Below are positions 1 to 19,708 of a DNA stretch of 42,579 nucleotides, in pieces. Under the pieces are notes generated by a model. The model searched no databases, was not told where the DNA came from, and worked only from the letters and a program-made list of their open reading frames with translations. A program made the position numbers and the translations under genes. Each line of letters begins with the position of its first letter. The first letter of the stretch is position 1. The stretch comes from a virus: the IMG/VR virus record IMGVR_UViG_3300045995_000846, positions 1 to 42,579 of that record; one strand, written 5' to 3'.

Positions 1-214
1 ATCAAAACTTACTCAAGAAAGATTGGATGCAGAAGCGATTGTTAAACTACAAGCAGGAGCAGAAAAGTCTTCCAAAGATAAAACCAAATCAAAACTTACT
101 CAAGAAAGATTGGATGCAGAAGCGATTGTTAAACTACAAGCAGGAGCAGAAAAGTCTTCCAAAGATAAAACCAAATCAAAACTTACTCAAGAAAGATTGG
201 ATGCAGAAGCGATT
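1..214 (+). repeat. 87-bp perfect tandem repeat inside tape measure gene
   Basis: Units run 1-87, 88-174 and 175-214. The third copy matches exactly up to 214 and diverges at 215. Each unit encodes 29 residues (LDAEAIVKLQAGAEKSSKDK...). Two full copies identical at the DNA level suggest recent expansion. The window begins exactly on a unit boundary, so more copies may lie to the left or have collapsed in assembly. Confidence 0.95.
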
Positions 215-3200
215 CTTAAGTTAGAAACTGACGCTACAAAGCGAGCCGAAGAGCGAAAAAGGCTTGAACTAGCTCAAGCCCCGGTAGAGCGAGGTCGCCT
301 TGCCTATGCCAACGCTGGCCAAAACATAGCTAATATCGCCTCAGCCGATCATGCCGATACCAAAGCTTACCTCCGGTTTCAACAACAGGAGCATTTAACT
401 CAAGCCAACCGGTTAACCAACACACCGGGCATCGGTGCAGACCACGAACAAACTAGATTAGCCACTGAGGCTGCTCACCGCTACGGAGCCGAGCTTCACC
501 AGCTCAATGCCGCTGCCACACATTTACACCCTGTCATGAGCCGATTAGGGGGCTTGTTTAGCCAGTTCGCCCGGTATTACATAGGGTATGGTGCGCTTTA
601 TCAAATTGGCGCAGCTTTCAGCTCAATCGCCGCAGCGGTGGTTGACTTGGAAGACAAGCTGAAATCTATCCAAGCGATCACCGGGTCATCGACCGCTGAG
701 ATGAGTCAGATGGGTGCGGCCCTAAAACAAGTAGCTGTCACCTCAGCTTTCAGCTTGAACGATATTTCGGATGCAGTTAAGACTGTTGCACAGGCCGGTG
801 TCGATTTAAAAGATATCCCCAAAACCTTGCAAGCTGTATCAGACTTGGCCACAGCTTCAGGTGCCAGCCTACAGGTTGCCGCCGATATTATCACCACTGC
901 CAAGGCAGTCTGGGATGATGTCAGTGTCACTGGTATTGCTGATAAAGTTACCCAAGCAGCGAATGTTTCTAAACTGGCAGTCGAAGATTTACAAACCATC
1001 TTCAGCTTAGGCGCATCGTTTGCCAAGAATGCCAATGTCAGCCTTGATCAATACCTGGGATTAGTTGCCACGTTAAAGAATGCTGGTATTAAATCATCCA
1101 CCATCGCGACCGGCACCAGCCAATTCTTGACTGAAGTCACCGCACCGGATGAGAAGTTTGGTTCATTCTTGAGTAAGCGGTACAAAGCAGTCGGTGAAAA
1201 TGTCTCTGGCTCGGAAGCCCGTAAGAAATTCTCCAGCTTCCGCTATGAAGACAACCCTATCCTGGCTGCACTTAATGAGTTGAAAAGGATCGGTGCCGAC
1301 TCTGCAGGTGCGTTGCCTGGGCTACAACGTGCGATGGACACACGCGGCTTCCGTATCTTGCAGCCCTTGCTGAACAACATAGGAAAGTTACAGGAAACAA
1401 GCGGTAAGTTGGGTACTGCGCCGACCGCACAAGAAGCCACTCAAATTGCTATGGATAGTTTGAAAAAGGCGACCAATAACTTGGTCGACCAATTCAATGT
1501 CTTGGCTGATACCTTAACGAAAGACGCTGTTCCTGCATTGACCAATCTGGTGAAAGGATTGTCCTCCGGCGTGGGTAAGCTGGATGACTTCATCAATAAA
1601 GCCCGACTTGAGCGGGGCGGTGAAACGATTAGTTGGCAAGGTAGTTTGGCTGGAGCTGCTACTGGTGCTGCTTATGGAGCCAGTAAAGGTAAAGGTGCCT
1701 GGAAACTAGGTACTGCAGCCGTTGGAGCGGTAGCAGGGCTTGCGGGGTCGTCTGCAGTTAGTAATGCATCAGCTGTTAGTGGGGATTCGGAGGAAGCAAC
1801 TAAGGTGATGGAACTTGGATTAATGGCCTATGTCGCCAGTAAGACCAAATTCATTGCCGATTTTTTCAGAAGAAGTAAGGGTTCAACTGCAGTTTTAGCT
1901 GCTGCTGAAAGTGGCACAGCAGGTATCGGGGCGGCTATCTCCGGATCATTGAAAGGCATAGGTGCCAAGATCACTGCTAAGCTTGGTGCCACTGGTCTGG
2001 TTGCGCTTGCTATCCCTGCTGTCGGTGAGATAGCGGCAGCACTGCTGGTTATCTGGACAGCCTTGGATGGGTTAGTAGCGATAGCTGACTTCTTCAAAAG
2101 CGACGAGCGTAAACTCGCTGATCTGGAGAAATTAAAACAAACGGCAGACCCCACACAGCTACGGGAAATACAAGCCCAAGAAAATGCCAAAGCAGGGCAA
2201 AGTGAGTTTACTAAATATGCTCAGCCGATAGCTGGACAGGCGTTACCTGAAGGTAGTATCGCAGGCAGTGTTAAGAAACAGCAAGATAGCCTTACCACAC
2301 TTCGTCAGGACTTTGGTCACGCTATCGGTAACCCTGATCTCAAGCCTGAATCTGATGGATTAATCTCGCAGAAACTGCATGAATTCAGAGCCTATGCGAC
2401 GGAAGGCGCTGCCCGAAAAGAACAGATGGGCAAGCTTCAAGACTTGTTTGGTGGCTCTGGAAAAGTTGATGAGCAAGCTTTGCAGGCGGATCAAGATGCA
2501 TCAGACGTTATCAGAGGTGCTGTTGAAGGTTTGGTATCGGCAACAGCAAAGCGATATGTTGAGCTGATTGAAAAGCGCAAGAAGGACACGCTGTCTGAAA
2601 ATGATGCCAAAGAGTTAAAGGTACTTGAATCCAGACAAAGTACTGACGGTACATTCCGAGATATCTTAAAGAACAGCACTGGGACAGCATCATCCCAGGC
2701 TGTCTTAAAATCTTTAAATGACTACTCAATTGCCGGTGCTAGGGATGTAGGCATGCCTGATAATTTGGCAACCCTTACCAAGCAGCATGTGAAGGAGGCC
2801 TACCACAAAACAGCTCAACAGTCTGATCCCGATCAAGCATCCATTGGCCAAGAAAACTTTAAGAACACCTTGCGTTCTGGTATTGCAGATTACGGTCCTA
2901 ATTTCGCCAAAGAGATCATCACAGACCTAACCAAAGGCAGTACGCTTGGACGCTTGACGGATGCCCAGTTGAAAAGCGGTATCAAAGAGTTAATCCCCCG
3001 GTTGATCAATGCAGAATCAAAAGGTAATCCTAATGCTGTTTCCAAAGTAGGGGCTACCGGTATCGTTCAGATTATGGACGAGACCCGAGCCAAACCTGGA
3101 TACGGTGTTGCACCAATTAAGAAAGGGGCTTTACCCATTGAGGATGTGAAGTTCGCTGAAGACCTGCTCTTCGGTATGGCCAAAGCCAATCCGCATTGGA

Positions 3201-9072: not shown

Positions 9073-12000
9073 ATGGGCGGTAAGTCCGGAAGTGATCGCC
9101 CAGTCACCATTGGGTATCAATATTTCTTAAGCATGCACTTGGCGCTTTGCCACGGCCCGGTTGATTCTATCAACACGATAAAGGCTGGCGATATTGCTGT
9201 TGTCTGGAAATCTGGGCAGGACTCTTGGGTTCCTGATTCTGGCCTATACACCACTAAGATAACTTCTAACGGATCTTTCTCTTTCAATAAGCCAGATTTG
9301 TTTGGCGGTAAATTGAAGGAAGGCGGGGCAGTAGGCTCCTGTTTAGCATTAATGGGTGGCCCAACTCAGCTACCTAATGAATGGTTGCGAACTGCGTTAG
9401 GTGGCCCTACAGCACTTCCTGCTTTTCGGGGGATTACTTCCATCGTTTGGCAGGACATCTTCTACGGTTCGAATTCAGCCATCCCTAAACCGTGGCAAGT
9501 TCATACCACACGTATCCCTTTAAAATTCCTAACAGGTGTTGAAGCGACAGCATTAGGCACTGCGCTTTATGCGGATATTCTTGGCGAAGCCAACCCTGCG
9601 TTTATCGTTGCAGAATGTCTGATTGATTCAGTCTGGGGACTTGGGTACGCATGGGCTGACCTCAACCTTGCCAGCTTCGCTACTGCAGCAGCTATCTTGC
9701 ATGCTGAGGGGTTTGGCTTATCTGCCCTCTGGGAGAGTTCCTCCACCACCGAGGATTTCCTCAACTTAATCATGCAGCATTGTAGTGGGACACTTTATGT
9801 TGCTCCCGACACCGGTCAATTCACCTTCAAGCTTATCCGTAAAGATTACAACGTTTTAAGCTTGTTCGTAGCGAACGAAACCAACGTTGTCGATATGAGT
9901 GATATGACTCGCACAGGAACTGCCGAGTTAGTCAATCAGGTTACGGTCAAGTGGGTGGATGTCAATACAGGTAACTGGAATTCACTGACCGTTAACAATC
10001 CTGCCGTTAGAGAATTGCAGAAGTCTATTGTCGCAGTGACCAGGGAATATGTAGCGGTCACCAGCTCTACTTTAGCGAAGACCATTGCCTTACGCGACAT
10101 CAGCGTAATGAGCCAGCCGCTGGCATCAGTCAAATTGATCATGAACCGAACCGCATCCCACTTGTCGATTGGGGATGTGATCGAATGGGTATGGCCAGAT
10201 CTTGGTATAGGGGTAAACGGATCTCAAGGCATGCTCTTGCGTATCGTGTCAATTGGTTACGGTCTGCTGGACTCCAGCGAAATAACGTTAGACTGTATTG
10301 AAGATATCTTTGGTGCTAATCACGTTAATTATTCCACCCCAAACGATACCGCTTGGGTTGATCCGACACCTAACGCAGCGGTCGTTCCCGCCCAACGCAG
10401 CTTCAATCCTACTTACATGGATGTCTTGCAGCATCTACGTTTTGAAGGTAATTCGATCACTGACCTTACACCTGATCGAGGATTCAATATCTTACTGGCT
10501 TCACAGCCTTCACGGATGGCGACCAACTATGAGCTTTGGGTCGACCGAGGCACTGCGAGCTATGCCTATAACAAACTGACCACGTTCAACCCATACGCTA
10601 AGATCACTACTACGGTCTCGCCTGCTGACTTCTCGACCTTTGCGATCTACGGATCCTTGAGTCCTGATTGGATAAAGGTAGGACAGTATGCAATCTGCGG
10701 CGAGGAGTGGATGTATGTTTCCGCTGTCAGCACTTCGGCGGTAGGGGTAACTACATTAACTTGTACCCGAGGTATCATCGATACCACGCCTGGGTTCTTG
10801 TATGCCGACGCAGATATCTGGTTCTACGACAAGTCTCAGACTGCTGATTATAAGGATTTCGTTACTGGAACTATCGTCCACAGTAAAGCGCTTACTCGTA
10901 CATCTTTAGGGTTATTACCTCTAGTTGAGGCGCCTGTTTCCACCAACACGATTGATGCTCGATGGATGAGACCTTATCCTCCTGCTAACCTAAAAATCAA
11001 TGGCTCACGTTTTCCGGCTACCGTAACCGGTGATGTTTCTTTGACTTGGTCTTATCGAAATAGAACACTACAAGAGCTGACGGTCTTAGGTCAAAATGAG
11101 TCAGCGACGATCAGCGATGAAGTTGGGACGACTTATACCGTCAGGATTATTTCACCTACCGATGTTGTTTTAAAAACCTATGAAGGGATTGTTGGGAATA
11201 TTTTTATTTATTCTCAAACCCAAGCAATCGCTGACGGTGCCAATGGGTCTTTCTATATCGGTATCGTTGCGGTTAGAAATGGGTTGGCTAGTCAAATGGC
11301 TCACTTCTCTGCGATTCAGAGCACAGGGTTCGTTAGTCAGGCCAACCTTGTTGATGGTCTAGGATTGAGTGTTTATGATAGTACCGGTGGACTTGTCACC
11401 ACTGTAGATGCAGCGGGTGTCGGCTATTCGGCAAACGCCGCGCTATCCGACGCAGCAGGGTCTGCGATTCTTGATGCGGCGTCTGGTGCTGTCACTACTT
11501 CAGACACCACCTTTGTCAGCACAGATCTTAGTCTCAGATTCCCACCCTTCGGTGCTTATACCCCATCAATCTTGGCCGTAGCTGACCATATTATTGTCAC
11601 CAGTATCAACGCAATCGGAGATGCCGGGGTTGGGTTCTCCGGTAAAGATGCGATCATCTATTGGACTGACAATCATGTTGCCTTGTTCACAGCCCCTACC
11701 AAGTTCTCTGTCGAAGAGCAGCATGGTTGGCTGAAAGATTATGAAGTGGTTATCTCTAAGGATGGCGTGGTACGCCGGACAGAATATGTTCTGATTCCTG
11801 AATACACCTACACGTATGATAAGAACGTTGCTGATGGATTGACACGTCGCTTCACTGTGACCATCAGAATTAGAAATGACCTGGGTATATTTTCACCCGG
11901 CTTAAGTGCCTCGATGGAGAACCCTGCAGCCGTTTTCAGCCAGATTACTTTCATGCCCAAGTCAAGTTCTGGAGCCTTGTTGGTGCATGCGGTTTCTACA

Positions 12001-14043
12001 GACCCTCAACTACGCTACACCAAAGTTTACGCATCAAAAACGTCAGGGTTCATCCCCAGCGATATCAATTTAGCCTATCAAGGTGCTGATACAATCATGA
12101 CAGTGCCTACTCCTGGTGGCGGTGTTTGGTTTATCAAATTGATGGCTGTGGATGATTTCGGTGAGTTCGGTGCGATAGTGTCGGCTGAACTCACCCCTGA
12201 TGTAATCCCTCCTGGTCCTCCTACGCAATTGACCGTGAAACCTATGATTAGGTCAGTCTTGTTACAGTGGATGAATCCCAGTGACGTAGATTTTGATCAT
12301 GTCGAGATTTTTATGGGGTTGGACAGTAACTTCAGTGGGAATGGAGTCAACGGTTCTGCAGCAGGTAAGGTCGGCAACTCAACAAGTGATTCGTATACCA
12401 TCACAGGTTTACCAGTGTCTATGGTTACGCGCTACTTTTGGGTACGGGCAGTTGACAAAACAGGTAATATTTCAGCGTTTAATACGGTGGTGGGAACGTC
12501 AGGTACAACCTTAGAAGAAGCAGACTTCATGGTAGCCTTGTTAGCCGGTAAGCTTTCTGAATCTGCATTAACCACAGCTTTAGGTACTCGGCTCAACTTG
12601 ATTGATGGTGCTGCCAGTGTTGCAGGATCTGTTGCCAATCAGGTCGCAGCTGAAGCGGCAGCAAGAGGCACCGCTATTTCTAATGAACGCACTGTATGGC
12701 AAGCTGCCGACTCCCAATTAGCACAGTCCATCAGCTTGATAACCGCAAGTTCTTCAACCGGATTTGATGCAGGGCAGACTTGGTATTTTGACGCCACCGT
12801 CGAAGGATGGACAGCTGCCGGTGCTACCCAGGCATGGAGTGCTGGGTACGTCAATGTGACTGCAACTGGATCGACTCCGCAATTCACATCTCCTGCTGCA
12901 TTATCGGTAGTCGGAACCCAGTACAACATCGTCAAGATCCGGGTCAAACGCCTTGCCGGTACCGGTTGGATTGGCAACTTGTTCTACTCCACATCAGGTC
13001 ACGGGCTCACAGCGCCTTATGGCAAGAACGTTCCGGTCCCTGCTGTGTTCGGAGTCGGCGACATAGCTATCATTGACTTTGACATGTCCTTGGTTACTGA
13101 TTGGACAAGCAACATCATTACCCAAATCCGTTTGGATTTGGGCAGTACCGGTGATATCTTCGCGGTGGACTGGGTAGCGATTGGACGGAATGCCCCCGCC
13201 TCAGCGGTAGCAGGATTATCCGTTGAACAAACAGCAAGGATAAGTGGAGATGCAGCGACGTTAGCATCTGCTACCGCCCTAAATACTACACTGTCTGCCC
13301 AAGTTAACGATGTCACAACTGGATTACCGGCAACCCGATCTACTTTGGTCGCCTTGTCTACCACTGTGTCTAATTTATCAACATCCACTTCAAGCAGTAT
13401 TTCCAGCTTGTCAGCACAGCTTAATACCCCGGGTACCGGTCTGGTAGCCTCTGTTGCTGCGATCACCACTGCTCAACAAGCAATGGTTACGCCTGCCACT
13501 GTGCAGGCTACCGTAGACACCTCCGTAGCCTCATCTGTACCGGCAGCGGTGAACACTGCTCTCGCCAATTCCACGACCTTGGGTGCGTCGGTAACGGCTG
13601 CGGTGGCCGCTTCCACAATAGTAGCCCAGCACACCTCCAGTATCAATGGGTTAAGTGGACAGTACACAGTAAAGATCGACAACAATGGGTATGTTGCAGG
13701 GTATGGCTTAGCCTCTATTGCAGCCGACCCTACTGCTGTACCTAGCTCTGCATTTAAGATCCGAGCCGATCAATTCACAATAGGTAATCCATCAGGGCCT
13801 GGAGTAGCCCCTGTTACACCTTTCATGGTAATTACCACGCCCACGGTTATAAATGGTTCGAACTTCGCTCCAGGCACCTATATAAATAACGCGATGATCG
13901 CCAACCTTAAAGCAGGGCAGATCTCAACTACGGACTTGAGCAGTATCAACTCTAATTTGGGAACCATTGTCGCAGGTGTTTTACGCTCTGCTGACGGGTT
14001 ATTTGTCATCGATTTGAATCAAAAATTTATCTCTATTCAATAA
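9073..14043 (+). CDS. J-like tail tip / central fibre protein (host specificity)
   Basis: 1656 residues. The N-terminal hub region carries MHLALCHGPVDSI, FRGITSIVWQDIFYG, a KPWQVHTTRIP block and NPAFIVAECLIDSVWGLGYA, all characteristic of the tail-hub domain of J-like proteins. A fibronectin type III domain lies near 1036-1140 (PPGPPTQLTV...RYFWVRAVDKTGN). A jelly-roll, lectin-like domain lies near 1232-1378 (QTWYFDATVEGW...DWVAIGR). Ala/Thr/Ser-rich helical linkers follow, then a DUF1983-type C-terminus (QYTVKIDNNGYVAGYGL). It lacks the normal N-terminal strand block, which is in the 88-residue gene upstream. It probably forms the trimeric central fibre that contacts the host. The AAGGAAGG ribosome-binding site supports the 9073 start. 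Confidence 0.92.
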   Translation: MGGKSGSDRPVTIGYQYFLSMHLALCHGPVDSINTIKAGDIAVVWKSGQDSWVPDSGLYTTKITSNGSFSFNKPDLFGGKLKEGGAVGSCLALMGGPTQLPNEWLRTALGGPTALPAFRGITSIVWQDIFYGSNSAIPKPWQVHTTRIPLKFLTGVEATALGTALYADILGEANPAFIVAECLIDSVWGLGYAWADLNLASFATAAAILHAEGFGLSALWESSSTTEDFLNLIMQHCSGTLYVAPDTGQFTFKLIRKDYNVLSLFVANETNVVDMSDMTRTGTAELVNQVTVKWVDVNTGNWNSLTVNNPAVRELQKSIVAVTREYVAVTSSTLAKTIALRDISVMSQPLASVKLIMNRTASHLSIGDVIEWVWPDLGIGVNGSQGMLLRIVSIGYGLLDSSEITLDCIEDIFGANHVNYSTPNDTAWVDPTPNAAVVPAQRSFNPTYMDVLQHLRFEGNSITDLTPDRGFNILLASQPSRMATNYELWVDRGTASYAYNKLTTFNPYAKITTTVSPADFSTFAIYGSLSPDWIKVGQYAICGEEWMYVSAVSTSAVGVTTLTCTRGIIDTTPGFLYADADIWFYDKSQTADYKDFVTGTIVHSKALTRTSLGLLPLVEAPVSTNTIDARWMRPYPPANLKINGSRFPATVTGDVSLTWSYRNRTLQELTVLGQNESATISDEVGTTYTVRIISPTDVVLKTYEGIVGNIFIYSQTQAIADGANGSFYIGIVAVRNGLASQMAHFSAIQSTGFVSQANLVDGLGLSVYDSTGGLVTTVDAAGVGYSANAALSDAAGSAILDAASGAVTTSDTTFVSTDLSLRFPPFGAYTPSILAVADHIIVTSINAIGDAGVGFSGKDAIIYWTDNHVALFTAPTKFSVEEQHGWLKDYEVVISKDGVVRRTEYVLIPEYTYTYDKNVADGLTRRFTVTIRIRNDLGIFSPGLSASMENPAAVFSQITFMPKSSSGALLVHAVSTDPQLRYTKVYASKTSGFIPSDINLAYQGADTIMTVPTPGGGVWFIKLMAVDDFGEFGAIVSAELTPDVIPPGPPTQLTVKPMIRSVLLQWMNPSDVDFDHVEIFMGLDSNFSGNGVNGSAAGKVGNSTSDSYTITGLPVSMVTRYFWVRAVDKTGNISAFNTVVGTSGTTLEEADFMVALLAGKLSESALTTALGTRLNLIDGAASVAGSVANQVAAEAAARGTAISNERTVWQAADSQLAQSISLITASSSTGFDAGQTWYFDATVEGWTAAGATQAWSAGYVNVTATGSTPQFTSPAALSVVGTQYNIVKIRVKRLAGTGWIGNLFYSTSGHGLTAPYGKNVPVPAVFGVGDIAIIDFDMSLVTDWTSNIITQIRLDLGSTGDIFAVDWVAIGRNAPASAVAGLSVEQTARISGDAATLASATALNTTLSAQVNDVTTGLPATRSTLVALSTTVSNLSTSTSSSISSLSAQLNTPGTGLVASVAAITTAQQAMVTPATVQATVDTSVASSVPAAVNTALANSTTLGASVTAAVAASTIVAQHTSSINGLSGQYTVKIDNNGYVAGYGLASIAADPTAVPSSAFKIRADQFTIGNPSGPGVAPVTPFMVITTPTVINGSNFAPGTYINNAMIANLKAGQISTTDLSSINSNLGTIVAGVLRSADGLFVIDLNQKFISIQ

Positions 14044-14576
14044 TGTATAAACTATTTGCAGGAAAACCCCCGGCCACTAAACTCAATGTGGATAACAGCA
14101 CTATCCCGAGTAGTGTGTTATCAATACTCAGGTCTGGATCATTAGCAGCTGTGGCAGGTATAGAAGGTGTTGACGTAGGTCGTAGGCCTGCTGGATGGAC
14201 ATTAGAGGCTAACGTCGAAAATATTGTATTTGATTCAAGATTTAAGTACTTGAGAAAGTTATTAATCGTTAATTCTACAGCGGTCACTCTACCTGCCAGA
14301 GGAGCTACAGCAGCTATCGCATATTATTCACTAGGGTCAGTTGTATCTAATTCCTCATCCTCATTTATCTTGGGAAAAGAGATTAACTCCCCTAATTATG
14401 GAATATATACCAACATGTGTAACGCAGCAGCCACTCGCTTTGTTTTCTTCAGTTCCATTGTCACCCCGATAGGGAATTTGTATACACATGAGTTATTCCT
14501 GATCGAACAATATGCAGGAATTTCAGCACCGTCAACGACGTTACAGGTTACTGCAATGCTACTTTCTGGAGGCTAA
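14043..14576 (+). CDS. Virion-associated protein downstream of tail tip
   Basis: 177 residues; its ATG overlaps the TAA of the tip gene by one base. Composition is Ser/Ala/Val-rich, beta-type, without signal peptide or membrane segment. The second half (FILGKEINSPNYGIYTNMCN...ELFLIEQYAG) reads like a compact beta-sandwich. Such proteins after the J gene are often decoration or receptor-binding partners of the tip. I do not recognise the family. Confidence 0.6.
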   Translation: MYKLFAGKPPATKLNVDNSTIPSSVLSILRSGSLAAVAGIEGVDVGRRPAGWTLEANVENIVFDSRFKYLRKLLIVNSTAVTLPARGATAAIAYYSLGSVVSNSSSSFILGKEINSPNYGIYTNMCNAAATRFVFFSSIVTPIGNLYTHELFLIEQYAGISAPSTTLQVTAMLLSGG

Positions 14577-14579
14577 GGT

Positions 14580-17500
14580 ATGGCTGAATTATTATCGATC
14601 ACTCCTAGTCGTATCGCCGTAGGAGACCGACTCGACACAGCTACCCCGTTCGTTTTTGTAAGTAGCGGGTTTGCTGATTACATCATGCCGGTGTATAGAG
14701 CTAGAGAAGCTGTTTTAAGCGCTGTGGTGATAGCCGCCCAAGCTGACATTGAAGTACGTTACCAAAGTATCGTACAAAATCTTATATTAAATGGCTTACT
14801 GACGGCTATTTATAAGCCTACTCTTATTGGCTATTACAATAAGATCCAAGCAGATGCTGCTACTTATATTGCTGTGGCTGCGTACTTCAATATAAGTTCA
14901 GGAGCATATCAAGCAGCTATATCCACCTTGACGACTACGTTGCCCATACACGCTCCGGGATGGTCTAACACCAGTATCGATTCGATGACGAACGCTACTC
15001 AAGTAGAGTACTTGTTTTTAAACGTGTACATACAACAGGCGTCTATATTGGTGGATATCGCCAACAAGTTATCCAGTTCATCGATCGTGGTTAATTTAAA
15101 AGCTGTTCTCCCTGGCAGTGGGGTAGCGTATACAGCAGGGATGGTTCTTATTACAGACCAATGGTTCCCTCAGGATCCAGCTCTCCTTGCATCTTACACG
15201 TTCACCGCAGGCAAAGTTCTAGATGAACTTTATATTGATAGCCATATTGCTATCCAAGATACCAATGTGGTTATCTCTGATCTGATAACCAGCCGTAGAA
15301 TGTCGCCTAGTGTTATGACTCAGGCCCAAAAAAATGCTTATTATGCTCAGTTAGCTACGATAAAAACCAGTATAGCAGCTGAGTTTGCTTCATATGCCGA
15401 AAAAATAACAACCTTTTCTGGGCATTCAGTTAACCATTCATACGTCAACGCGACAGGGTATAGCGTAATCACTTATCATGAAGTAAACACAGTAAATATA
15501 AATTCTTTAAATCGTTCAATCCCTAAGTTAACCCCTACTACCACTTCTGAAATATACACAGCCCCTCTCCAATTATCGGAAGTGCTTCCTGTTGATATTT
15601 TGGCGACCCAGGCTGAGCTATTTTCAGGGACTATGCAATTTTCTGGTGGGGTTAAGCTCTATGATGGCAGCATATTTTATGTCCCTTTCAATTCGACCAC
15701 TGCGCGAATTTATAACCCGACAACAAAAGTAACCACCACACCCTCTGGTACATATCCAGGCAATGGGGCCTTCTCTTGCGGAATTCGTTTGGTGAGCGGA
15801 GCCGTGCTTTGTGTACCTTACAATTCTCTTAACGCAATGGTTTATGACCCTACTCTGGATACATTGACAACTTTATCAGAATCCTTTCCCGGAAACGGAG
15901 CTTACTCGGGAGTGTCTGAGACACATGTAGGTGGTATATTTTTTGTTCCATTCAATGCAACAGTAGCAAAGATCTATAAACGTGATACAACTACTGGAAC
16001 GTATTCATTTACCGCCCAGCCAATCACCATATTCCCAGGTAATGGGGCCTTTTCTGGAGGGGTGCAGACTTCACTACCTAATACCCCAGGAAATTTTGGG
16101 TTAACATTCTGTATTCCTTACAATTCGACTCAGGCTGCACTTTATGATTACGTCAATGACAGCTTAACGTATCTTCCGGAAGTGTACCCGGGTAATGGAG
16201 CGTTCTCTGGAGGTGTTGTTACTTATCCTGGCACAAGCGATATTCTATCCGATGCTTATGACATCTTTATGGTGCCTTTTAATTCTACAACGGCACGACT
16301 TTATAAATCGTTAAATCAAGTAAATACTTTCACTACACCTGCAGGATTTTGCCCGGGTGGTGGTGCATTTTCAGGAGCTATTCATTACGTGTTTGATAGC
16401 ATTGGGGATTTACTGTGTATCCCATATAACTCCCCATCGGCATACGTGTTCTCCTACACGAAGACTACCCCTAAAATGATCGGCAACGTTCTGGTAAATG
16501 TACCTTTTACAGTGGTAGGTGGTTACATCGAAAAACGCCCTCTTGTGGTTGATTCAACAGGGGCACAAATTACATCAGGCACAGAGTTTGCTGGAGGCGC
16601 AGCTTTTTCAGCGGGGATGTTTATCAGCTCAAAAGTTGCACACTTCATTCCAAGCAGCGCCAGTCACGCAGTTACTTATTCTGTAGGTTTGGGAACGTTA
16701 AGCAGTAATCTTCCTACCTTGATATCTCCTATTTATGGAGGGGTAAGCAAGTACGAAAATAATATGAAGAATATGTTGTCATGGATATTCCCAACAGGGG
16801 TTTTACCAGCTATTAGGAAGCCCGATATCCTCCAGTTTCTAGCTGAGGTAACTGCAGACAAGGCGATAGTAGATGCTGCATTTGACAGATTTATTGGTAA
16901 GAACCCAATTTACTTCGACTCAGTTGCAAATAAATATATTGCAGCACTTGGGGCTAATACCGAATTGGAAAGGACTACATTACAGACTGCTTACACAGCA
17001 CTTACTACTTACCTTGGCACGTTGGACCTTGTATCTGCGACTGATTTGACCTTGTTGTCCCCAGCAAGTTTATCTCAGCAAGCTGTGTGTGATATAAATT
17101 CTAGGTATGCTGGCTGTACTTGGGTCTCGACGTTACAATCAAGATTTAATGATGTTTATCTGCAGTTGGCCGCAGCTATAGCTACAATGCCAGATTATGT
17201 TTGGCCTGCAGGTGTGGATCCTAAACAAACGGTATCAAATTGGGACCCGTCATTCACTATGGTTTCCCCTATCAACGCTACCGCAACTACTTCTGCTTTT
17301 CAAATACCCACCGTAGCTGAACAACCTACCATTTCCACTATAGCAAGTTTGTACTCAATCAATACGACCCCTTACACTGCAGTCCTGGGCAATATCACTA
17401 CTTATGCAACAGTACAGAATACTCCTCCGATAGGATCCACCGAGATAAAAACAGGGAAGTTTATATTCCAAGGATATGGGCGGGTGCAGTGGACGACCGA

Positions 17501-17684
17501 TCCTGCATCCATGGGTTTTTATAATTATGGGCTGTTTGCATCTGCCCTGGTAAAAGGAGCCAATGGTAATGTCCTATTAGGTAGGCAAGATTGGGTAGGA
17601 TTAGCCAATGACCATAAATACGAAGGGGATTCAACAGGTGGAGTGAACTATACGTTAACCGACAGGATACTGAATATCTTATGA
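14580..17684 (+). CDS. Large tail-fibre-like protein with seven propeller-like repeats
   Basis: 1034 residues with a GGAGG ribosome-binding site. The N-terminal third is helix-rich. From about residue 347 to 722 there are seven repeats of roughly 45-75 residues, each with a PGNGAFSGGV-like turn, a short variable strand, an I(F/C)xVP(Y/F)NS core and an AxxYxP strand. In the first five copies the core is VPFNSTTARIY, VPYNSLNAMVY, VPFNATVAKIY, IPYNSTQAALY and VPFNSTTARLY. Seven Kelch-like repeats suggest a seven-bladed beta-propeller, plausible for sugar or protein binding on a receptor-binding protein. The C-terminal part is helix-rich, ending in a beta region. It sits after the tip gene and overlaps the next gene by ATGA. 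The function is inferred. Confidence 0.75.
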   Translation: MAELLSITPSRIAVGDRLDTATPFVFVSSGFADYIMPVYRAREAVLSAVVIAAQADIEVRYQSIVQNLILNGLLTAIYKPTLIGYYNKIQADAATYIAVAAYFNISSGAYQAAISTLTTTLPIHAPGWSNTSIDSMTNATQVEYLFLNVYIQQASILVDIANKLSSSSIVVNLKAVLPGSGVAYTAGMVLITDQWFPQDPALLASYTFTAGKVLDELYIDSHIAIQDTNVVISDLITSRRMSPSVMTQAQKNAYYAQLATIKTSIAAEFASYAEKITTFSGHSVNHSYVNATGYSVITYHEVNTVNINSLNRSIPKLTPTTTSEIYTAPLQLSEVLPVDILATQAELFSGTMQFSGGVKLYDGSIFYVPFNSTTARIYNPTTKVTTTPSGTYPGNGAFSCGIRLVSGAVLCVPYNSLNAMVYDPTLDTLTTLSESFPGNGAYSGVSETHVGGIFFVPFNATVAKIYKRDTTTGTYSFTAQPITIFPGNGAFSGGVQTSLPNTPGNFGLTFCIPYNSTQAALYDYVNDSLTYLPEVYPGNGAFSGGVVTYPGTSDILSDAYDIFMVPFNSTTARLYKSLNQVNTFTTPAGFCPGGGAFSGAIHYVFDSIGDLLCIPYNSPSAYVFSYTKTTPKMIGNVLVNVPFTVVGGYIEKRPLVVDSTGAQITSGTEFAGGAAFSAGMFISSKVAHFIPSSASHAVTYSVGLGTLSSNLPTLISPIYGGVSKYENNMKNMLSWIFPTGVLPAIRKPDILQFLAEVTADKAIVDAAFDRFIGKNPIYFDSVANKYIAALGANTELERTTLQTAYTALTTYLGTLDLVSATDLTLLSPASLSQQAVCDINSRYAGCTWVSTLQSRFNDVYLQLAAAIATMPDYVWPAGVDPKQTVSNWDPSFTMVSPINATATTSAFQIPTVAEQPTISTIASLYSINTTPYTAVLGNITTYATVQNTPPIGSTEIKTGKFIFQGYGRVQWTTDPASMGFYNYGLFASALVKGANGNVLLGRQDWVGLANDHKYEGDSTGGVNYTLTDRILNIL

Positions 17685-18328
17685 GTATTTATCTTTCAAA
17701 AAATCTTATTGAAATTAAACGACCAGTAACAGGGGAGCTCATCCTTAATACAGACAAAATATTGCCTCATGTAACTTGGAGTGGTGAGTTCCTTAATTTT
17801 GCTACTGTTACTGACATGACAGGGGTAGTTTCTAACGCTTACTTAAACCCCCCTTCCGTGGGTCCATTCAACGATATCGAGTCGTTCAATATCGCCAGCT
17901 TTCCCATCCCTATACCTGCTTTATCTGATAGTTTGTTTCCACTTATATGGGTTAAATTATCGAACGCAACAGGCCCACTGGGTGCTTTACAAACTGGGTA
18001 CATGCACGTCCCAGGTACACTGATATTAGAATTATTTAGACACGGTAACGCATTTCAAGATACAGGAGGAATGCCTGTTGGCTATAATGGTATGATAGCA
18101 GTGAACACAACCTTCGAGGGTAGCACTGCAATACTGCAGATCTCCAGAACATTGGCAGCACTGAAACCCGGAGCTGGACTGGTAGGGTTTCAAAGCACTG
18201 CAGGACCGCTCTATCATAGCGTTGTAGGCCAGGAAACTAATTCGTTTAACATACCGAGAACTGTTTCAGTAACTGGAACAGGTTTTACACTTTCACTTAA
18301 AGTAAGTTTATTGAGGATAACAAAATGA
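17681..18328 (+). CDS. Tail-fibre cassette protein, unknown
   Basis: 215 residues, coupled by ATGA to the propeller gene and by ATGAG to the next. Beta-rich and Pro/Gly/Thr-rich with no catalytic motif; it includes repeated hydrophobic strands such as LILELFRHGNAF and PRTVSVTGTGFTLSL. The context makes it a virion component, perhaps an accessory or chaperone of the fibre. I do not recognise the family. Confidence 0.6.
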   Translation: MSIYLSKNLIEIKRPVTGELILNTDKILPHVTWSGEFLNFATVTDMTGVVSNAYLNPPSVGPFNDIESFNIASFPIPIPALSDSLFPLIWVKLSNATGPLGALQTGYMHVPGTLILELFRHGNAFQDTGGMPVGYNGMIAVNTTFEGSTAILQISRTLAALKPGAGLVGFQSTAGPLYHSVVGQETNSFNIPRTVSVTGTGFTLSLKVSLLRITK

Positions 18329-18543: not shown

Positions 18544-18574
18544 ACCCTCACATTCCGCTAATACAAGGATGTAT

Positions 18575-19708
18575 ATGGCAACCACCGCACCACTATCAGA
18601 AACTCTCATTCCGAAGATCACCAAGGCGACGAAAGAAGAATGCATCGCTGACCTTCGCTCCATAGCCATTGATAACCCTGAGCTGGTAATCAGCCGTAAC
18701 TATTACCGAGTCCACGGTAAGTATTCTGAATCTTGTTACTCAGCCTGGGCTGGAACCTTTGAAGAATTCAAACGTCAGGCAGGAATCAAACTGAGCCGGC
18801 AGCAGCATAATCTGGAAAAGAATATCGCTAAGCATGCGTCGGTTGATCATTATCGGCAGTTGAATATTGATAAAAAAGATTGGGGTGACAAATACCTGCG
18901 TCCGGTTGGGAAGCGGTTTCAAACCGTACTTATCTGTAGCGACCTACATGATGAGTTGGTTGACCCATTTTATCTAAGAGTATTGTTGGACACTGCTAAG
19001 AGGGTGCAGCCAGAGATCATAGTGTTGAACGGAGATATTTGGGATGCTTCTGAGTTCGGTAAGTATACGGTTGACCCCAGAGGGTTTAACGTGGTCGCCA
19101 AGATTAAATTCATCCATGAACATATCCTTGCACCGTTACGGGAAAATTGCCCTGACGCGCAAATAGATTGGATCTCAGGCAACCATGAAGACCGCTTAGT
19201 GAAACACTTAGCAGATGCCACACCAGCTATGCGTATCCTTCTTTCTGACCTGCATGGCTTTACTGTCAGTAAGCTTCTTGGCTTAGAGACCTACCAAGTC
19301 AATTTCATCGCCAAGTCTGATCTGTCAGCTTATACTGTTACCAATATAAAATCTGAGGTAGCTAAAAATTATAAGACCTATTTTGGGTGCTATGTTACCA
19401 ACCACTTTCCTGAAGGAATCAACCTAGGGATGCCAGGAACCAATGGCCACTCCCACAAATTCAAAGTTACCCCCTGCTATAATGAGACTTTTGGATCTTA
19501 CAGTTGGGTTCAGACTGGATGTGGACACCTTAAAGATGCGTCATATTGTAATGCGGAGAAGTGGGATATGGGTTTTCTTCTTGTCCATGTCGACACCGAA
19601 AGCAAAAATGTTAATCAAGAGTATCTGCCTATCACTGATTTCGCTGTGGTCGGCGGCACCTTCTATTACCGTACTCCTTCTGAGTATATCAAGGTGCTGG
19701 CGTCGTGA
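18575..19708 (+). CDS. Calcineurin-like metallophosphoesterase with N-terminal HNR-like domain
   Basis: 377 residues from the ATG at 18575, chosen because AAGGA (18565-18569) lies 5 nt upstream; an ATG at 18569 overlaps that site. The phosphoesterase motifs are complete and in order: SDLHD (about 122-126), GDIWD (153-157), GNHED (202-206), TNHFPEG, and GHSHKF (about 290). These ligate two metals for phosphodiester hydrolysis. The first 75 residues resemble homing-endonuclease-associated repeats (TKEECIADL, NYYRVHGKYS, then AWAGTFEEFKRQAGI), which usually bind DNA. It is distinct from the SbcD-like protein at 27273. Its position between tail and lysis genes does not reveal the substrate; nucleic acid is my guess because of the N-terminal domain. 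Confidence 0.88.
   Translation: MATTAPLSETLIPKITKATKEECIADLRSIAIDNPELVISRNYYRVHGKYSESCYSAWAGTFEEFKRQAGIKLSRQQHNLEKNIAKHASVDHYRQLNIDKKDWGDKYLRPVGKRFQTVLICSDLHDELVDPFYLRVLLDTAKRVQPEIIVLNGDIWDASEFGKYTVDPRGFNVVAKIKFIHEHILAPLRENCPDAQIDWISGNHEDRLVKHLADATPAMRILLSDLHGFTVSKLLGLETYQVNFIAKSDLSAYTVTNIKSEVAKNYKTYFGCYVTNHFPEGINLGMPGTNGHSHKFKVTPCYNETFGSYSWVQTGCGHLKDASYCNAEKWDMGFLLVHVDTESKNVNQEYLPITDFAVVGGTFYYRTPSEYIKVLAS

Follow-up and report, generated by a model that had tools for sequence, protein, structure and literature searches.

What does a protein built around seven repeats do in the tail of a phage? The question is raised by the IMG/VR record IMGVR_UViG_3300045995_000846, which was analyzed whole (42,579 bases; hereafter the window), and by one of its open reading frames (ORFs), ORF 14580..17684, which lies on the + strand, starts with ATG, and encodes 1034 amino acids (a.a.). 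We put it at about two chances in three that this ORF encodes a tail-associated adsorption protein with a recognition face on a beta-propeller, and that this face binds a host receptor.

Repeat Units and Predicted Fold

The initial annotation had described seven copies of a PGNGAFSGGV...(V/I)P(Y/F)NS...AxxY unit, and all seven were recovered between residue 348 and residue ~702, the exact wording fitting the middle copies best. The units start at residues 348, 392, 436, 485, 536, 591, and 670, giving spacings of 44, 44, 49, 51, 55, and 79 residues, the last being long because blade 6 has an insert near residues 635–668. The PGNGA(F/Y)S motif is literal in blades 2–5 and reads PGGGAFS in blade 6, AGGAAFS in blade 7, and SGTMQFS in blade 1. 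Likewise, (V/I)P(Y/F)NS is literal in five of the seven blades (VPFNA and IPSSA in the remaining two), and the aromatic that closes the AxxY part is Tyr in six blades and Phe in one. When the protein was compared with itself, 40-residue diagonals scored 111, 106, 95, 89, 59, and 54, and the highest score from 30 shuffles was 45, which excludes a chance origin of the repeat. Blade 7 is the weakest copy; a strict hidden Markov model (HMM) filter scores six units in the protein, and blade 7 is a full blade in the structural model.

That model, computed with AlphaFold2 for 417 residues from an alignment of 40 sequences (the window protein and 39 relatives), reached a predicted local distance difference test (pLDDT) of 78.9 and a predicted template modeling score (pTM) of 0.81, with 215 of the 417 residues at a pLDDT of at least 90. 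It is a closed propeller of seven blades with four strands each (strand A at columns 7–12 of the blade alignment, B at 18–22, C at ~27–32, and D at ~37–44). One strand precedes blade 1 and blade 7 has three, the usual ring closure, with the pairing deduced from the strand count. In a structure comparison of the model, the best solved match was the virginiamycin B lyase 2z2o (Z 27.6, root-mean-square deviation (rmsd) 2.6, 295 aligned), these lyases as a group giving Z 27.2–27.6, rmsd 2.6–2.7, and 293–295 aligned, followed by galactose oxidases (Z ~26). Z was at least 8 for 982 of the 984 compared chains, and those listed were propellers.

Because the model, the structure comparison, and the preference of the relatives for seven blades (see below) agree, the seven-bladed reading of the initial annotation is supported, and the middle of the window protein (residues ~340–702) is predicted with good confidence to form a four-stranded, seven-bladed beta-propeller. 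Structure prediction had been named as the check, with a beta-helix or separate sandwiches as the contrary outcome. Repeats of ~44 residues can also make solenoids, and the model is based on 40 sequences; however, such an arrangement in place of a closed propeller is scarcely credible, given a closed, seven-fold model with four-stranded blades, the structure matches just described, and a blade number that is fixed in most relatives, where a solenoid would need none.

The propeller lies within the protein, with ~337 residues before and 332 after it. The proposal of an internal insertion thus holds for the window protein, but not for most relatives, in which the propeller is the C-terminal domain. 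The proposal of helical flanks drew slight backing from a full-length model (pTM 0.51), which kept the propeller and placed helices near residues 248–278 and 729–867, in flanks mostly below a pLDDT of 50.

Relationship to Kelch Repeats

Kelch repeats are recognized by a diglycine after strand B and by a Tyr...Trp pair. We compared ungapped blades only, 237 from relatives (239 in the entropy analysis below, with two from the window). A diglycine at columns 22–23 occurs in 0/237 relative blades, and the window protein reads P-F/Y/S there; Tyr is present at column 31 in 230/237, Trp at columns 36–40 in 0/237, and the seven window units are without any Trp. The window protein gave no match against Pfam even at E 1. 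Among the 40 aligned members at E 0.01, Kelch_1 matches six and Kelch_6 five, and one ORF of a relative (L003, ORF 8615) passes the Kelch_6 cut-off. Further Pfam matches of the relatives (DUF4651, RCC1_2, Rap1a, ETM, etc.) were sums of short, weak repeat matches without a passing stretch and were given no weight.

The structure alignments (A3 and A4) were built from 39 of 44 relative stretches, with L009, L052, L041, L061, and L059 left out. In profile comparison, Kelch designs (7on6, E 3.3e-13) and galactose oxidase (E 2.9e-11) were the best PDB matches of A3. The label Kelch-like is therefore apt for the fold and for remote sequence similarity to Kelch designs and galactose oxidase, but not for the diglycine and tryptophan, and we refuse the narrow-sense Kelch label because both are absent from all 237 relative blades. 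Judged by its sequence, the protein is a Kelch-like propeller outside the narrow-sense Kelch repeat family, and it has the remote sequence and fold similarity of the wide-sense Kelch superfamily, that of galactose oxidase.

Relatives and Blade Number

Searched by itself, the window protein gave no match by tblastn against phage records, its own peptides matched no contig among the viral and bacterial contigs, and two weak matches only (E 0.35) were returned from PHROGs. Its sequence matches among solved structures were antibody Fab chains (E 0.001–0.1), taken as an effect of composition. No near match was found for window positions 1–25000 as DNA. A profile of the seven units does reach relatives, and a second profile found 122 of them in IMG/VR viral contigs, of which 80 were kept, representing 77 loci (numbered with the prefix L). 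From bacterial and archaeal genome contigs, two loci were confirmed, both in metagenome-assembled genomes (Afipia sp. and Planctomycetaceae). The viral and genome scans ran on different peptide patterns, which makes the ratio of 122:2 a rough one; the propeller family looks viral. For the flanks of the window protein, no relative was found among all ORFs of the related loci and none that was convincing in phages (E 1 or worse).

In the relatives, the clean unit reads YPGSGAFxGGVLLPDGRVFCVPxNSTTARIYDPVTDTVTTPSGT. Blades were counted with the strict HMM filter and only in complete ORFs, of which 56 remained from 76 after redundancy was removed at 90% identity; seven blades were scored in 45 ORFs, six in 7, four in 2, five in 1, and eight in 1. 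The window protein is counted with the sixes, its degenerate blade 7 scoring below the threshold. Some low counts may stem from short-read assemblies collapsing near-identical repeats, as is reported for Podospora propellers in the relevant part of PMC12222747. The proteins of Cylindrospermopsis phage Cr-LKS4 and Vibrio phage 2.095.A, counted by reading, have seven repeats each.

Several relatives have features of their own. At three loci (L003:6099-10147, L058:5602-9759, and L082:5893-10985), there are three propeller genes each, arranged in tandem or almost so, with differing N-termini and seven or nearly seven blades per gene. At L083:3973-9480, an ORF of 1835 a.a. resembles the window gene in that its seven-blade propeller is internal; the 822 residues beyond the propeller include LADLDDVAAARDNLGL, a stretch which we take to be of the kind known from tail fibers. 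Finally, the C-terminus of 45 of 55 non-redundant complete relatives is NK plus F/L/I/Y/V, ~20 residues past blade 7 (e.g., L003:8520-8597), and the Cr-LKS4 protein ends in LNKF; the window protein is without such an end and runs 332 residues further.

A Hypervariable Face in the Relatives

Across the 239 blades, entropy was highest at columns 5, 8, and 23 (3.39, 3.48, and 3.32 bits), followed by columns 42 (2.42 bits), 4 (2.22 bits), 34 (2.16 bits), and 24 (2.14 bits). Within proteins, blade pairs of at least 70% identity (n = 351) differed in amino acid at columns 4, 5, 8, 23, and 24 in 0.48, 0.72, 0.85, 0.75, and 0.58 of pairs, with none of the remaining columns above 0.35 (column 42). Synonymous differences were 0.01–0.09 at these five columns versus 0.08–0.40 elsewhere. 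Of 36 proteins that qualified for a test by protein, 33 had such pairs, and the five-column excess was present in 33/33; when the data were split at random, both halves ranked the same top five in 180 of 200 splits. In 30 relatives, blades within a protein have a mean identity of 0.29 over the five columns and of 0.84 elsewhere. L022 and L020 are extreme cases, with 0.03–0.04 amino-acid and 0.01–0.02 synonymous differences per site in the framework and 0.42–0.69 at the five columns. Outside the close family members, the blades of the Cr-LKS4 protein are near-identical, and the first six depart from the sequence of blade 1 at the equivalents of columns 8 and 21–26 and nowhere else.

The meander topology of the blades places the D-A loop, the B-C loop, and the first part of strand A together on one side of the disc and the conserved LPDGR (A-B) and PVTD (C-D) turns on the other, so that all five variable columns map to one face of the predicted fold. 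In the relatives, we read this face as a putative receptor-recognition surface under diversifying selection.

Origin of the Variation

A diversity-generating retroelement could write the variable codons of the family, since genes of low divergence change at the first and second positions of NNC/NNT codons, a pattern that retroelement targets also show. However, the reverse transcriptase domain RVT_1 had no match in any of the 30 records searched, some of which may be incomplete. Among framework sites with A, 26/27 are constant in L020, 32/34 in L022, 22/27 in L049, and 20/32 in L041 (1/27 and 2/34 varying in the first two), which speaks against adenine-directed mutagenesis. Some variable sites are without any A, and the diversified targets are seven separate blades per gene. 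After the RVT_1 result and the constancy of the framework A sites, retroelement diversification, by now very improbable, was set aside.

Sister genes were compared in pairs of at least 85% identity. Two gene types, represented by L027:410-1582 and L009:5806-6978 and each present in four assemblies, differ at 0/82 flank amino acids, and their blades differ at 44 amino acids (17/35 variable and 27/273 framework) and ~90 synonymous sites, which suggests that the propeller was exchanged as a block between them. Further sister pairs are identical or almost so, and the face therefore went unchanged in some generations.

Proposed Role in Adsorption

We propose that residues ~340–702 would fold as the propeller, which the long N- and C-terminal segments would anchor to the tail tip or partner chains, and that recognition would take place on the face where the D-A loops, the B-C loops, and the first part of strand A come together. 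In the relatives, five codons in each blade are diversified on this face and the scaffold is otherwise homogenized; in the window protein, the scaffold has diverged and the face is nearly uniform. Virion attachment, ligand binding, and host recognition by the window protein are inferred from these features and from the tail context. The propeller gene stands in the tail module near a J-like tail-tip gene, and similar company is found around the relatives. At 47 related loci, 109 of 113 neighbor ORFs were scanned (four large ones were excluded, two of L064 and one each of L034 and L063, three of them already named in a separate comparison); central tail fiber J, tail fiber phrog_11518, and virion structural protein were found five times each and several tail proteins four times each, and many of these ORFs were without a named function. 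A baseplate wedge gene lies close upstream at L050, a J gene lies nearby at L051, and in L045 a tail-fiber match (phrog_19602, E 5.9e-11) and the propeller share one polypeptide.

In the window protein, column 8 is Ser in 7/7 blades, the residues at column 23 from blade 1 to blade 7 are F, Y, F, Y, F, Y, and S (Phe/Tyr in 6/7), and column 24 is Asn in 6/7. Aromatics and hydroxyls in a ring would be consistent with contact to a carbohydrate but do not prove it.

Near uniformity of the face could also suit a symmetric structural contact, and the propeller might be a platform or connector of the tail, comparable to the nozzle propeller in phages SU10 and T7; for SU10, the nozzle protein is described as having a seven-bladed propeller at its core. 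Nevertheless, SU10-type nozzles belong to short-tailed phages, and the window has a tape measure and a J-like tail tip, while a hypervariable face on a conserved remainder, as in the relatives, is the opposite of what a fixed internal joint would show. We regard a structural role as unlikely. An enzyme cutting surface polysaccharide or another substrate, in the manner of propeller lyases, sialidases, or galactose oxidase, is suggested by the closest folds, virginiamycin B lyase and galactose oxidase, which are enzymes. Yet function is not readable from closeness of fold (virginiamycin B lyase was compared by fold alone), the face positions are the most variable of the family with no shared active site visible there, and the Ser, Phe/Tyr, and Asn of the window face include no acid or histidine; catalysis thus seems quite unlikely.

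Some points weigh against the adsorption reading. The window protein is without a close relative and has diverged blades, and hypervariability is shown for the family rather than for this member. Its mean within-protein identity runs the other way, with 0.56 for the five columns against 0.28 outside columns 4–8 and 22–25, a reversal that is only a hint because column permutation gave P 0.06. The flanks that would attach the propeller are not modeled with confidence in the full-length model. Lastly, the exchange pattern of the sister genes could partly be recombination of any kind.

Gene Surroundings

The window begins within the tape-measure gene and continues through tail-assembly genes to the tail tip (Table 1), with replication genes on the opposite strand (polymerase, helicase, primase, SbcC/D-like exonuclease, and thymidylate synthase); no tRNA genes were found in the window. 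From its tape measure, J-like tail tip, and gene order, the source is therefore identifiable as a long-tailed phage. The N-terminal half of the J-like protein matches 886 phage records, all at <60% identity and including many Pseudomonas phages such as YuA. The slot after the tail tip, where the propeller gene lies, is the usual site of accessory or receptor-binding tail proteins. Two genes past the propeller gene is a metallophosphoesterase gene (phrog_20266, E 1.2e-95; window 18569-19708), followed by one short ORF and then a weak match to a holin. At window 1-219, within the tape-measure gene, an 87-base unit is repeated 2.5 times at 99%, which is either real or an assembly-edge effect.

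Table 1. Positions in the window of the propeller gene, its predicted parts, and adjacent genes.
Feature	Coordinates	Strand	Basis and remarks
Propeller ORF	14580..17684	+	Tail-region protein with predicted internal seven-bladed beta-propeller; models and position right after tail-tip genes
N-terminal segment, residues 1-338	14580..15593	+	Helix predicted at 248-278, remainder low confidence; without known relative
Closing strand, residues 340-343 (model residues 15-18)	15597..15608	+	Putative fourth strand of blade 7; pairing by strand count
Blade 1, residues 348-391	15621..15752	+	Repeat and model
Blade 2, residues 392-435	15753..15884	+	Repeat and model
Blade 3, residues 436-484	15885..16031	+	Repeat and model
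Blade 4, residues 485-535	16032..16184	+	Repeat and model
Blade 5, residues 536-590	16185..16349	+	Repeat and model
Blade 6, residues 591-669	16350..16586	+	Repeat and model; low-confidence insert ~635-668
Blade 7, residues 670-702, three strands	16587..16685	+	Repeat and model
C-terminal segment, residues 703-1034	16686..17681	+	Helices 729-867 predicted at low confidence; without known relative
J-like tail-tip protein, 1656 a.a., upstream	9073..14043	+	phrog_1101, E 1.6e-201
177-a.a. ORF between tail-tip and propeller genes	14043..14576	+	Relatives searched for, none found
215-a.a. ORF, 4-base overlap with end of propeller gene	17681..18328	+	Relatives searched for, none found

Comparison with Known Propellers

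Phage adsorption proteins are usually fibers, spikes, or lectin-like tips. To call a propeller unusual for a phage fiber, as the initial annotation did, is an overstatement given the precedents of phiKZ gp131C (seven blades) and phi11 Gp45 (five). In the pertinent sections of the two papers on it, phiKZ gp131C (PDB 4GBF) is proposed to be a receptor binder or an enzyme (PMC4901313, PMC6115969); it likewise has a seven-bladed beta-propeller in a peripheral tail or baseplate protein, but as a C-terminal domain and in a myophage. Its absence from the structure matches listed says nothing either way. The receptor-binding protein Gp45 of phi11 also carries its propeller internally, with a helical stem on the N-terminal side and a further part on the C-terminal side, and has a proposed glycan-binding cavity; it differs in having five blades and a known trimeric stem and tower (PMC4901313). 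Kelch-type propellers, one of them in the virion, are also recorded for phage CBB in part of PMC5259590, where they are annotated as Kelch repeat, unlike the window family with its missing Kelch hallmarks; the CBB proteins ranked 16 and 40 in our viral fold search. Seven-bladed phage tail propellers thus have precedent, and the window gene alone is a new member.

Two further phage proteins are Vibrio phage 2.095.A AUS02120 (annotated as WD40/YVTN repeat-like), whose gene comes after a presumed tape-measure gene, and Cr-LKS4 WHL30579, both with the same outline in their repeats but just 27–29% identical to relative L003 and unmatched by the window protein itself. Highly repetitive propellers amplified from a single blade, with viral members mentioned, are treated by Pereira and Lupas (PMC9218822) and Afanasieva et al. 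(PMC6805158), neither main text of which has the word 'phage' or 'hypervariable'; PDB 6R60 from the latter is the best single-sequence PDB match of L003. No description of hypervariable phage propellers was found in the open-access literature, subscription journals being mostly outside the search.

A parallel in design is fungal. According to the portion of PMC12222747 that deals with them, the HNWD proteins HET-D and HET-E of Podospora anserina have seven-bladed propellers with repeats >80 to 100% identical, concerted evolution, and an interaction face in which a few hypervariable codons are under diversifying selection. The phage relatives share this design of near-identical blades with few hypervariable face codons (33/33 relatives). 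They differ from HNWD, as portrayed there, in that the latter are of the WD40 lineage, serve as fungal immune receptors, and vary at four codons rather than five (PMC12222747). The window protein is unlike the HNWD type, its blades being diverged and its five columns rather conserved.

We see even odds that the phage tail-propeller family is a modular recognition disc of seven near-identical blades with five hypervariable residues each (~35 positions), in which blade or gene exchange would keep the framework uniform, selection would diversify the face without a retroelement, and the whole would be an independent counterpart of HNWD; the window protein would then be an older, diverged member settled on a ring of Ser, Phe/Tyr, and Asn. 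Of particular interest is that, across the family, interchangeable blades are combined with a diversified face, a pattern otherwise familiar from fungal receptors. If true, an interchangeable-blade propeller would let one ask how a repeat protein encodes receptor specificity, and how a phage holds a scaffold uniform when the surface used for binding does not stay the same. The resemblance to fungal self/non-self propellers (PMC12222747) suggests that the same solution may have arisen on both sides of recognition conflicts.

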